NCBI GenBank assembly: GCA_019237415.1
Contig: JAFAHD010000048.1
Location: 1-36,902 of the forward strand
Direction: 5' to 3'
DNA: 36,902 bases
Source: Vulcanimicrobiota bacterium
GTDB lineage: Bacteria > Vulcanimicrobiota > Vulcanimicrobiia > Eremiobacterales > Eremiobacteraceae
A program made the position numbers and the translations under genes. The notes beneath the pieces were generated by a model. That model was not told the DNA's origin, made no database searches, and saw nothing but the letters and a program-made list of their open reading frames with translations. Below are positions 3,265 to 36,297 of this stretch, piece after piece (the stretch's first letter is position 1; every line of letters starts with the position of its first letter).

Positions 3265-5073
<1,809 letters not shown>

Positions 5074-5076
5074 ACG

Positions 5077-5754
5077 ATCAGGATCAACAAGTACCTCGCT
5101 GACTCCGGAATAGCTAGCAGACGCGCCGCGGACGAGCTGATCGCCCGCGGCGCCGTCACAATCAACGGGCGCCGCGCGCAACTGGGCGACACGATCGACC
5201 ACGCTGCAGATGACGTCCGAGTCGAAGGCCGGGTCGTCAAGCCGCGCGTCGAGCGCCATGTCACGATCGCGCTCAATAAGCCTGTCGGTGTCATCACGAC
5301 GATGCGCGATGAGCGCGGGCGGCCGTGCGTCGGCGACCTGCTCGAGAAATCTACGAACCGTTTGTTTCCGATCGGCCGTCTCGATGCGCAGACGACCGGC
5401 CTTTTGTTGTGCACGTCGGACGGCGAACTGGGGCGTAATCTCGCCCATCCATCCTCACAGGTCGAACGGACATATCGCGTCACGGTAGCAGGCAAAGCGG
5501 CGCGCGAGGCATTGCGGCGATTGGGCGCGCGTACGGTCATCCAAAGCGCGCACGGCACACGATTCGAGATGACGCTGACGAGCGGTGCGAATCGAGAGAT
5601 TCGGCGCGCCTGCGCGCAGCAAGGTCTGCGCGTCGTGTCGCTCGAGCGCATCGCTTTCGGATCCGTTGTGTTGGGAGACCTTGCGCCAGGCAACTATCGC
5701 ACGTTGAGCGAACGCGAGACGCGACGACTCAGAGACCGCAAAGGCACAACATGA
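5077..5754 (+). CDS. S4-domain pseudouridine synthase (RsuA/RluB/RluF-like); apparent ATC start
   Basis: (I)RINKYLADSGIASRRAADELIARGAVTINGRRAQLGDTID S4 domain, then IALNKPVGVITTMRDERGRPCVGDLL...FPIGRLDAQTTGLLLCTSDGEL catalytic core. The ORF track shows only the part from ATG 5302. No ATG/GTG/TTG between the rho TAA (5071-5073, same frame) and 5302. Confidence 0.85.
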   Translation: MRINKYLADSGIASRRAADELIARGAVTINGRRAQLGDTIDHAADDVRVEGRVVKPRVERHVTIALNKPVGVITTMRDERGRPCVGDLLEKSTNRLFPIGRLDAQTTGLLLCTSDGELGRNLAHPSSQVERTYRVTVAGKAAREALRRLGARTVIQSAHGTRFEMTLTSGANREIRRACAQQGLRVVSLERIAFGSVVLGDLAPGNYRTLSERETRRLRDRKGTT

Positions 5755-6719
5755 TGTACCGGTTTTCCATCGTTGTGATCTTGGCGTGCGTGCTGCTGCC
5801 TTCAGCAGTGGTCGCGGACACCACGAGCGCGCCGCCGCCCGCCGATAAGACCGGACAGGGCGCGCAGGCGGTGCCGCAGACGACCCTCGAGCTTCCGCCG
5901 GGTTCGGACAGCGCTCGAATCCCGTTCAAGATCGTCGGCAGCAGCATCGTGGTGCGCGTGAAGGTCGGTTACCGCGACATGGATTTTGCCTTCGACTCCG
6001 GCGCCGGCACGACGATCCTCAACGAAGACATGTTCAAGCAGATGGTCGACACGCCGGGCAGCACGTTTGCACTGACCACGGTAAAGATCGGCGATGTCAC
6101 GCTGAACGACGTCACCGTGTATCCGAGCCCGATCCTCCAGCGGTACGAGGCTGCCGACACGGCGATCGTCGGGTTGATCGGCGGTGATCTCATGAAGAAC
6201 GCCGTCGTGCGCATCGATTACGATTCCGACACGATCGAAGTCACCAAGCCGTCAGCATTTAACCCGCCGGCGAATGCCGTGAGCGTCCCGATGATGGCAA
6301 ACGCGAGAGTCCCGATCGTCTCCGCGACGATCGGGAACGTCACGGGCGACAAGTTCGTGATCGACACCGGCGCATGGTCGGTGGTTGTGTTCCATCAATT
6401 CGCGGCTGAGCACCCCGAGCTGTTCACGAAGAACAACGAGTTCAAAGGTGAGGGCGTGCGGACGAAGCCGATCTGCGGCACCATCGTCAACACGCCGTAC
6501 CAAGAGAGCAGCGTACAGGTCGGCGACGCGGCGTCGGTTCCGAACTGGCTCGTACTGCTCACGCCGGAATCGAGTTGCTTCAATCGTCCGCTCGACGGCC
6601 TTATCGGGTACGACTATCTTCGCTTCTTCGTGGTCACGATCGACATGCCCCGATCGCGCGTTTACCTCGAGTTGCTCAAGAAGTACTCCGAGATTTCGCC
6701 CATCCTGAAGAGCGCCTGA
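5751..6719 (+). CDS. Secreted retropepsin-like aspartic protease (two D-S/T-G motifs)
   Basis: Signal peptide; FAFDSGAGTTILNEDMF and FVIDTGAWSVVVFHQFA; ATGA overlap with the preceding gene. Confidence 0.8.
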   Translation: MMYRFSIVVILACVLLPSAVVADTTSAPPPADKTGQGAQAVPQTTLELPPGSDSARIPFKIVGSSIVVRVKVGYRDMDFAFDSGAGTTILNEDMFKQMVDTPGSTFALTTVKIGDVTLNDVTVYPSPILQRYEAADTAIVGLIGGDLMKNAVVRIDYDSDTIEVTKPSAFNPPANAVSVPMMANARVPIVSATIGNVTGDKFVIDTGAWSVVVFHQFAAEHPELFTKNNEFKGEGVRTKPICGTIVNTPYQESSVQVGDAASVPNWLVLLTPESSCFNRPLDGLIGYDYLRFFVVTIDMPRSRVYLELLKKYSEISPILKSA

Positions 6720-31969: not shown

Positions 31970-32404
31970 ATGAGGTTCATGGTCATCGTTCCGGCCAACA
32001 AGGACACTGAGGCCGGCATCCTTCCGACCGCCGAGGAATTGGCCGAGATGGGCAAGTTCAATGAAGAGCTGGCAAAGGCCGGGGTCATGCTGGCAGGCGA
32101 AGGACTCCACCCCAGTTCAAAGGGCGCGCGGATCAGGTTCTCGGGAACGAAGCGCACGGTCATCGACGGTCCCTTCACGGAGTCGAAAGAGCTCGTGGCC
32201 GGATTTTGGATCATCCAAACCAAGTCGAAGGAAGAGGCGATCGAGTGGATGAAGCGCGCGCCGCTCTTCGACGGCGGCGTTGAGCTCGAGCTCCGCCAGG
32301 TGTTTGAAGCGTCCGACTTCGGTGACGACGCGAGCAAGGAGCTCAAGAAGAACGAAGAGCGCATGGACGGAAGACTGGCCGAGAATGCGCGACGCGGTCC
32401 CTAG
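31970..32404 (+). CDS. YCII-related (DGPF) domain protein
   Basis: MRFMVIVPANKDTEAGILPTAEELAEMGKFNEELAKAGVMLAGEGLHPSSKGARIRFSGTKRTVIDGPFTESKELVAGFWIIQTKSKEEAIEWMKRAP; SD AAAGGAG. Confidence 0.93.
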   Translation: MRFMVIVPANKDTEAGILPTAEELAEMGKFNEELAKAGVMLAGEGLHPSSKGARIRFSGTKRTVIDGPFTESKELVAGFWIIQTKSKEEAIEWMKRAPLFDGGVELELRQVFEASDFGDDASKELKKNEERMDGRLAENARRGP

Positions 32405-33722
32405 CGTTACCGTGCCAGAAGGGGACACGCACGCCGCCGTCGAGGCAGTCTGGAGAATCGAGTCCGCAAAGCTGATTGCCGGTCTCGCGCGGATCGTACG
32501 GGACGTCGGGGTTGCCGAAGAGCTGGCGCAAGATGCACTCGTTGCGGCGCTCGAGCAGTGGCCCGAGTCCGGCATACCTCGCAAACCGGGCGCCTGGCTC
32601 ATGTTGACCGCCAAGCGCCGCGCGATCGACCGTTTTCGTCGTGACAAACGTTTCGAACGCAAGCATGAAGAGTTGGTTCGCGATCTCGAGGTTCGACAGG
32701 CCCTCTCCGATCCCGGCCTCGACGACGACGTAAGTAATGGATGCGGTGACGACTTGCTGCGGCTCATCTTCACCGCCTGCCATCCGGTTCTAACTCGAGA
32801 AGCTCGCGTTGCTCTCACGCTGCGCCTGCTCGGAGGTTTGACCACCGAGGAGATCGCGCGCGCGTTTCTCGTCCCCGCTGCGACTATCGCGCAGCGCATC
32901 GTTCGTGCTAAGCGCACGCTAGCGGAGGCGCGCGTTCCGTTCGAGGTTCCGGACGGTGGGGACCGCGCGGCTAGACTGCAATCAGTGCTCGAAGTCATCT
33001 ACTTGATATTCAACGAGGGTTATGCGGCGACGGCCGGTGACGATTGGATGAGGCCGGGGCTATGCGAAGACGCGCTCCGCTTGGGACGAATTCTGGCGGA
33101 GCTCGCGCCAAAGGAGCCAGAAGCGCATGGTCTCGCCGCTCTCATGGAAATTCAAGCATCACGGATGAGAGCGCGAACTGGCAAGTCGGGCGAGGCCGTG
33201 AGGCTGTTCGACCAAGATCGCGGACGTTGGGACTACATTCTCATACGCCGGGGTCTGGCTGCACTGCAACGCACCGAGGCGCTCGGCGGAACGCTTGGAC
33301 CTTACGCGCTGCAGGCCGCTATTGCCGCCTGTCATGCACGCGCGCGTACTCCAGAAGAGACGGATTGGCAGCGCATTGTCGCGCTCTACGATGCGCTCGC
33401 CGAGCTCGCGCCGTCGCCGATCGTTGAGCTTAACCGCGCTGTCGCGATCGCGATGGCGTTTGGACCCGCGGCCGGACTTGAGATCGCGGATGGGCTCATG
33501 GACGAGCCGTCACTTCGAGAATACTATCTCTTGCCTGCCGTACGGGGAGACTTACTTGTCAAGATGGGGCGCTTTGATCAGGCGCGCACCGAGTTCGAGC
33601 GCGCCGCCTCGCTGACGAAAAACGCGCGCGAGCGCGAGCTCCTCCTCCGTTTCGCCGCAGATGCCGCGCACCGCTCAATCGGCGCCAACAATCGTCCGGC
33701 TGTGAGCCGCAGCCCGATCTGA
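32385..33722 (+). CDS. ECF-type sigma factor of the ECF42 (DGPF-associated) kind with long C-terminal TPR-like extension
   Basis: VWRIESAKLIAGLARIVRDVGVAEELAQDALVAALEQWPESGIPRKPGAWLMLTAKRRAIDRFRRD (sigma2); FTACHPVLTREARVALTLRLLGGLTTEEIARAFLVPAATIAQRIVRAKRTL (sigma4); YLIFNEGYAATAGDDWMRPGLCEDALRLGRILAEL... extension. ATG 32385 overlaps the DGPF gene. Confidence 0.93.
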   Translation: MRDAVPSVTVPEGDTHAAVEAVWRIESAKLIAGLARIVRDVGVAEELAQDALVAALEQWPESGIPRKPGAWLMLTAKRRAIDRFRRDKRFERKHEELVRDLEVRQALSDPGLDDDVSNGCGDDLLRLIFTACHPVLTREARVALTLRLLGGLTTEEIARAFLVPAATIAQRIVRAKRTLAEARVPFEVPDGGDRAARLQSVLEVIYLIFNEGYAATAGDDWMRPGLCEDALRLGRILAELAPKEPEAHGLAALMEIQASRMRARTGKSGEAVRLFDQDRGRWDYILIRRGLAALQRTEALGGTLGPYALQAAIAACHARARTPEETDWQRIVALYDALAELAPSPIVELNRAVAIAMAFGPAAGLEIADGLMDEPSLREYYLLPAVRGDLLVKMGRFDQARTEFERAASLTKNARERELLLRFAADAAHRSIGANNRPAVSRSPI

Positions 33723-35035: not shown

Positions 35036-35632
35036 GTGAGTATTAATGAGGACGCGACGATCATTGCTCGAGCAGTTGTCTTACTGCTCGACAATCGCGT
35101 AGCGGAAGCAAGCGAAGAGTTGGCAAGTCTTAGCCAAGACGATCCCGTGCCGAAACCAGCCATCATAGCCGGGTGTGGGACAATCGTACCTCACTTGCCG
35201 CGCCCATCAGTCAAGCCGCACCAGCTAGCAACCGTGCTCAGGCGAGATGGATGGCGCTGCCAGTATTGTGGTCGCAAACTCGTTGTCGCCGGCGTTCTGG
35301 AATTGGTTGGAGCGTTGTGTCCGGAAGCGTTTCCCTTTCCCTCTGGCCACCACATGCCGGTTGGTCGGACGCATCCGGCAGCGATCCGCGTATACCCAGC
35401 TGTTGATCATGTTCATCCTGTTTCGCTCGGCGGCGCCTGGGCTGACCCGCAAAACCTTGTGTCGGCTTGCGTCCCATGTAATGAACTCAAGAGCGACAAG
35501 CTAGGCTGGGCCCGCGGAACATTCAGCAATGACGGCTGGAATGGATTGGTCGAATACTATAGAGCGTTGGCCGAGCGCCGCGCCCCGATCCGGAGGTACC
35601 ACCTTGATTGGCTTCGAGCCCTTGGGACCTAA
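35036..35632 (+). CDS. HNH endonuclease family protein
   Basis: VLRRDGWRCQYCGRKL...AVDHVHPVSLGGAWADPQNLVSACVPCNELKSDKLG: CxxC...DHVxP...N...CxxCN...K HNH signature. GTG start. Confidence 0.88.
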   Translation: MSINEDATIIARAVVLLLDNRVAEASEELASLSQDDPVPKPAIIAGCGTIVPHLPRPSVKPHQLATVLRRDGWRCQYCGRKLVVAGVLELVGALCPEAFPFPSGHHMPVGRTHPAAIRVYPAVDHVHPVSLGGAWADPQNLVSACVPCNELKSDKLGWARGTFSNDGWNGLVEYYRALAERRAPIRRYHLDWLRALGT

Positions 35633-36297
35633 TGGAGTTCGCCGAAATGGATAACCCATGGACGCGGCTTCCGGCGCAGCCGCCGTTCGTGTTGCCAGAA
35701 GACGCATCGCCGATTGCGACCTACAACTCGTCGGCCGCGCCCGAAACTATGATTCACTTGGAAGTCCCACCGCTTCCGTACCTAGGGCGGCCGGACGCTC
35801 CGATTCTCCTACTGGCAACCAATCCGGGCTTTGACCCTGATGACGTGAAGCGCAACGAAGCGTATGACAACTACGATCTCAAGAACCTGGCTCACGCGCC
35901 TCTGGACTACCCGTTTTATTGGCTTGATCCGGTCCTGTATGACTCCCCCGGCTACAAGTACTGGGCGACTAGGGTTGCCGCGCTTACAAAGCTCTACGAT
36001 GCCAAACGTGTAGCCAACGCCCTGCTCTGCGTTGAGTACTTCCCGTATCCATCGGTGCGCGCTGCGCAGACACCCCGACTAGCGTCTCAAGAGTATGGCT
36101 TCCACTTGGTCCGCGGGGCACTAAAGCGTAATGCGGCGGTCATCATCCTTCGCGCGAAGGATTTGTGGATCGGCGCGGTCCATGAGCTCGCGACCTATCC
36201 CTACTTCGAAGCGAAGAACCGCCGCGCGGCGTTCTTGTCCGAAGCAAATCTCGGCGAAGGATTCACGGCGATCTGCGGGTGCCTCGACAAAGGATAG
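35632..36297 (+). CDS. Hypothetical protein with LLLATNPGF motif, possibly uracil-DNA-glycosylase-like fold
   Basis: PILLLATNPGFDPDDVKRNE...VEYFPYPSVRAAQTPRLASQEYGFHLVRGALKRNAAVIILRAKDLWIGAV; ATG overlaps the HNH stop (TAATG). Confidence 0.6.
   Translation: MEFAEMDNPWTRLPAQPPFVLPEDASPIATYNSSAAPETMIHLEVPPLPYLGRPDAPILLLATNPGFDPDDVKRNEAYDNYDLKNLAHAPLDYPFYWLDPVLYDSPGYKYWATRVAALTKLYDAKRVANALLCVEYFPYPSVRAAQTPRLASQEYGFHLVRGALKRNAAVIILRAKDLWIGAVHELATYPYFEAKNRRAAFLSEANLGEGFTAICGCLDKG

Follow-up and report, generated by a model that had tools for sequence, protein, structure and literature searches.

Towards the right end of a contig assigned to a Vulcanimicrobiota bacterium, an HNH endonuclease gene is directly followed by a second gene carrying an asparagine-proline-glycine motif. 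The question that this locus raises is what the second product, hereafter protein 2, might do, and whether it does so in concert with the nuclease. The window, that is the whole stretch of 36,902 nucleotides that was analysed, is one entire contig. The draft genome to which it belongs measures 1.76 Mb, with a completeness of about 72%, and the window contains the following features.

32280-33722 (strand not given): sigma-factor-like gene, preceding the low-GC segment
33902-34666, minus strand: hypothetical gene, 254 aa, of low GC and without a family, flanking the HNH/protein 2 pair in the accessory segment
35036-35632, plus strand: HNH endonuclease gene, GTG start, 198 aa
35630-35634, plus strand: TAATG stop/start overlap of the HNH gene and protein 2, read from the sequence
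35632-36297, plus strand: protein 2, a Brig-like, uracil-DNA glycosylase (UDG)-superfamily DNA glycosylase candidate, ATG at 35632, stop at 36297, 221 aa
36608-36626, plus strand: boxA-like rRNA operon leader element, TTCTTTGAAAACTAAACAG, which precedes 16S rRNA in relatives

The two open reading frames of the pair were borne out as given in the preliminary description. The overlap from which translational coupling had been proposed is present as well, the stop codon of the HNH gene (TAA, 35630-35632) and the ATG of protein 2 having one base in common. An alternative in-frame ATG is located at 35647 (Met6), with a GGAG (35634-35637) 9 nt upstream, and this ATG, served by the GGAG, may be the true start of protein 2. 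A 14-base gap would then replace the one-base overlap, an arrangement with which coupling remains compatible, and translational coupling of the two genes is thus to be regarded as possible.

The segment from 33.9 to 36.3 kb has a GC content of 0.53-0.59, against 0.648 ± 0.029 for 700-base stretches in the remainder of the window. The fall from 0.65 occurs past the sigma-factor-like gene, at the right end of the window, and the genes downstream of this sigma factor are different in every relative compared. These features agree with the accessory segment initially described, and the HNH/protein 2 cluster was probably acquired. Among the genes of the window, no known defence gene was found beside the pair. 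The adjoining rRNA-type locus was also confirmed: the leader element TTCTTTGAAAACTAAACAG recurs in three members of the same family, where at most a few hundred bases separate it from the 16S rRNA downstream. The contig itself stops short of the 16S gene, and an assembly join may be present near its end, beside the rRNA operon.

Regarding the HNH gene, its product scores above the curated Pfam cut-off for PF01844 (E=7.8e-8; 32.8 bits versus 21.4). Following an N-terminal region of its own, it displays CxxC (75-78), an insertion of about 45 residues, DH (124-125), N140 and CxxCN (145-149), the core CxxC...DH...N...CxxCN (C75, C78, D124-H125, N140, C145, C148) being intact. It hence shares a complete HNH core and zinc-binding cysteines with the PF01844 endonucleases, including PtuB-type and actinobacterial plasmid HNH proteins, and differs from them by the insertion between CxxC and DH. 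Septu (PtuA/PtuB) was considered and rejected for this locus, as the match to PtuB is weak (E=0.0017), the adjacent genes are not ATPases and no PtuA adjoins it. The closest relative, 61% identical over nearly its full length, comes from a single further genome of this bacterial family, G006; the HNH gene is therefore real and no chance open reading frame, and its relative in G006 argues that at least this gene of the pair is native to the lineage. Remoter relatives reside on actinobacterial plasmids (Rhodococcus, Curtobacterium), where their neighbours vary.

In G006, the HNH relative heads four same-strand genes (L026:4758-8776, minus strand). Behind it come P0015, a protein of 242 aa, then a 197-aa protein that falls into no family, and last a Schlafen group 3 helicase resembling Nhi and AbiO; a DndC gene (E=4e-142) is located some 7 kb further along. 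Judged by sequence, the HNH type of the window occurs in at least one clear defence island, which supports the defence-like setting originally suggested for the pair. The HNH relative, P0015, the 197-aa protein and the helicase near DndC possibly form a defence operon not described before. The P0015 family is present in 19 of the 149 genomes of the phylum and has no Pfam match. P0015 itself carries LFIGLEEGG and VRHPSR, which raised the suspicion of a likeness to UDGs, and a low-probability alignment places the HP of its family against UDG motif B; none of nine members matches PF03167. One P0015-family member (L041:1444-2927) is immediately followed by a gene of the PF03167 uracil-DNA glycosylase superfamily (E=1.2e-5), and at another locus (L037:1483-3332) the gene directly after the P0015-family gene is three-Cys-motif partner-like, as recognised by eye.

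With protein 2, we turn to the gene on which the interpretation of the locus hinges. Relatives 36-44% identical occur in Eremiobacterota, Phycisphaerae, Planctomycetales and Coriobacteriia, and since these are full-length proteins of three phyla, protein 2 is a real gene. No Pfam family, PF03167 included, matches it, and sequence searches of the PDB returned nothing credible. The NCBIfam model antiviral_Brig1 (NF047634) matches residues 40-144 with E=0.0037 (16.8 bits). The same model matches all seven intact close family members scanned (best 8e-10), and in a phylum-wide scan it recovered a 43%-identical relative in G111 (2.0e-9; positions 44-208 of 254; 38.2 bits). Both scores fall far short of the 230 bits set as the equivalog cut-off; as read from these profile matches, protein 2 and Brig1 share a real yet distant homology, and protein 2 belongs to the Brig1 family in the wide sense.

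The protein 2 family has a patchy distribution. Within the phylum it is present in 4 of 149 genomes, the relative in G111 being identical to the one at an Eremiobacterota locus (L013). Remoter relatives are carried by plasmids of Streptomyces, Variovorax and Rhizobium, and decayed copies were found in one betaproteobacterium and one Geobacteraceae genome (L019, L020). One relative comes after a terminase large subunit gene (PF20454; L014:1417-4695), which suggests a prophage setting, and a cut-off relative at a contig end adjoins a TIR-domain gene (PF13676, E=1.7e-14; L012/L028). A further relative lies in MT836197.1, named as a faecal bacteriophage clone, beside cytochrome c biogenesis-like and c-type cytochrome-like genes (recognised by eye); this clone looks like bacterial DNA. 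No relatives came to light in viral contigs scanned with the close family, with the Streptomyces relative or with the faecal-clone relative.

Does protein 2 adopt the fold of a uracil-DNA glycosylase? Its AlphaFold2 model, built from seven sequences (pLDDT 81, pTM 0.83), is an alpha/beta structure with core strands at 58-63, 131-136 and 169-172. When this model was compared with the PDB by Foldseek, uracil-DNA glycosylases made up 17 of the 20 best matches (best E=0.38), many of the 17 being mutants of one protein, UdgX, with five different proteins among them. For a second family member, whose model is poor (pLDDT 65), uracil-DNA glycosylases occupied ranks 1-8 (best E=0.042). The check by AlphaFold and Foldseek advised in the preliminary description thus gave a divided outcome: UDGs rank first for two models, and no single match is significant, with TM-scores of 0.2-0.4. 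Given these high E-values, each match means little by itself, and the argument for a UDG fold is that one rare fold ranked first in both searches; on these models, we infer that protein 2 has this fold. The family 4 uracil-DNA glycosylases/UdgX (PF03167) are its best fold matches in both searches. In a profile-profile comparison with family 4, motif A alone aligned, with low probability, GEGPGETED being placed against ATNPGFDPD of protein 2. In contrast to family 4 enzymes, protein 2 lacks a Pfam match and the HPS motif B, and its TM-scores are low.

Active-site-type residues add to this picture. The motifs first singled out, LLLATNPGF and the conserved-looking VEYFPYPS...ILRAKDLW, are present, several of their letters being invariant in the family. 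The landmarks of protein 2 are N64-P65-G66, Y110/W111, E135-x-F-P-Y-x-S141, R174, W179 and N206, of which N64, P65, W111 and E135 are invariant across the close family. In the model, the first core strand ends in N64-P65-G66, Y110/W111 come next, and E135 is located in the next core strand. Mutants have established that Brig1 requires Y121 and E147 (PMC11078745) and that Brig3 requires N50, E55, W100, D127, R197 and N225 (PMC13160076), the pocket of Brig3 also including P51 (PMC13160076). The distance from the asparagine to the tryptophan is 47 in protein 2 versus 50 in Brig3, and that from the aromatic to the acidic residue is 24-25 versus 25-27 in Brig1/Brig3, the Brig-type residues of protein 2 being assigned by motif and spacing and not by residue-level alignment to Brig1 or Brig3. 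By the same spacing, the fifth residue after the asparagine appears to be a proline in protein 2, whereas it is a glutamate in Brig3 (E55, which reads the hydroxymethyl group in 5hmC recognition). A 5hmC or glucosyl-hmC substrate can hence not be assumed, and substrate recognition probably differs from that of Brig3. Taken together, the Brig1 model matching 7/7 close members, the UDGs heading two PDB fold searches and the conserved active-site-type residues support the early assignment of protein 2 to the UDG superfamily.

Among characterised enzymes, the closest parallels are thus with the Brig proteins. With Brig1, an anti-phage alpha-glucosyl-hmC DNA glycosylase, protein 2 shares a sequence relation detectable across its family, putative pocket residues of aromatic and acidic type that are similarly spaced, and a patchy accessory distribution; the Brig1 neighbour is an ADP-ribosyl glycohydrolase, that of protein 2 an HNH gene. 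With Brig3, a 5hmC DNA glycosylase accompanied by BapA, it has in common the N-P motif, the putative aromatic and acidic pocket residues and the two-gene arrangement, although the Brig3 neighbour is a glucosyl hydrolase and not an HNH nuclease. R.PabI-type restriction glycosylases offer a possible common logic, namely base excision as restriction aided by strand breakage at abasic sites, but they have the HALFPIPE fold, sequence specificity and a methylase partner, and no homology to protein 2 was seen.

On this evidence, we lean towards a reading in which protein 2, encoded in an accessory island, is a modified-base glycosylase of a distant Brig-like branch and probably serves against phages, its UDG fold, catalysis, base specificity and anti-phage role all being predicted. 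In invading phage DNA, protein 2 would flip a modified base out into its aromatic pocket, and the glycosidic bond would be hydrolysed with the help of N64 and E135, the resulting abasic sites presumably blocking phage replication. The HNH protein, as the nuclease of the same accessory island, may cut the same DNA, for instance at or near abasic sites; such cooperation, which this reading does not require, we consider possible but unlikely.

The preliminary description had seen in the two genes a nuclease paired with a base-recognition fold, and had named a lack of co-conservation as one of the points on which this idea could fail. At 15 other loci with protein 2 relatives, some of them short or at contig ends, no HNH gene was found nearby by tblastn, by reading of the neighbours or by a six-frame motif scan, the latter being so strict that the HNH gene known in L030 escaped it, and taken beside the other two approaches. 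In phylum-wide searches, HNH and protein 2 matches co-occur in 1/149 genomes, that of the window itself. The two genes are not co-conserved, and a conserved HNH-glycosylase operon was rejected. The searches beyond the phylum comprised one pattern-based genome scan and plasmid and phage collections, and given this limited extent, further HNH-glycosylase pairs may exist. In G006, the gene that follows the HNH relative is P0015, a different gene. As the pair is not conserved, joint sensing or cleavage of modified DNA rests on a single locus and on the HNH relative in the defence island.

A nuclease of another type was found at L013, where an Exo_endo_phos gene (PF03372, E=2.6e-11; 4984-5787) lies directly upstream, on the same strand, of the 43%-identical protein 2 relative (5983-6654) and ends about 200 bases before it. 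There are hence two cases of a nuclease-superfamily gene directly upstream of a protein 2-type gene; they involve different families and are too few to argue from. By eye, the LQE-type motif of the Exo_endo_phos protein appears as LQS, its activity being uncertain.

How, then, are the two genes related? That they are unrelated neighbours is plausible, if short of probable: the HNH protein would be an independent accessory nuclease, defensive or mobile, standing by chance upstream of a Brig-like gene where accessory genes collect, an account compatible with the glycosylase reading of protein 2. The pairing that is not conserved, the varied neighbours of the Rhodococcus and Curtobacterium plasmid relatives and the different genes trailing the sigma-factor gene in each relative speak for it, although a one-base same-strand overlap is more typical of operon partners and in the defence island of G006 a gene on the same strand again closely trails the HNH relative.

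More doubtful is a two-component glycosylase-nuclease restriction, in which modified phage DNA would acquire abasic sites through protein 2 and the HNH protein, recognising protein 2 or the abasic site, would cut the strand and convert base removal into strand breaks. The TAATG overlap, the strand and low-GC segment that the two genes have in common, the defence-island HNH relative and the Exo_endo_phos gene upstream of the 43%-identical relative are consistent with it. In addition, AP endonucleases promote restriction by the glycosylase R.PabI (PMC10273834), and Brig3 likewise has an operon partner, BapA (PMC13160076). However, HNH is absent at every other glycosylase-family locus seen, the genes co-occur in a single genome of the phylum, and Brig1 is protective as a single gene (PMC11078745). 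A version in which base-excision restriction is carried out by a Brig-like glycosylase and a co-translated HNH, the partner nuclease being swapped between lineages (HNH versus Exo_endo_phos), is given a low probability.

UDG superfamily proteins are mostly repair enzymes, and this argues for the least probable alternative, that protein 2 serves not in defence but in host DNA repair, as a glycosylase for a base that is damaged or deaminated. Brig1 and Brig3 also retain residual uracil activity (PMC13160076), but the host genome already has a separate, ordinary PF03167 UDG on another contig, and this, with the patchy spread of the family, its plasmid and phage-like settings and its decayed copies, makes a repair role improbable.

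We therefore return to protein 2 as a Brig-like modified-base glycosylase, most likely a stand-alone one, with or without cooperation from the HNH protein. A system made up of glycosylase and HNH would be new, although it rests on one locus; if the HNH partner is functional, it would show the conversion of base excision into DNA cleavage. From its sequence, protein 2 belongs to a known kind of glycosylase, within which it forms a new and distant branch, and the characterised base-excision defence enzymes are very few, namely Brig1, Brig2 and Brig3. With the family of protein 2, the Brig-like group reaches into Eremiobacterota, Planctomycetota and Coriobacteriia and, more distantly, to plasmids of Streptomyces, Variovorax and Rhizobium, and with another residue where Brig3 reads 5hmC, the members of this family may recognise other phage base modifications.
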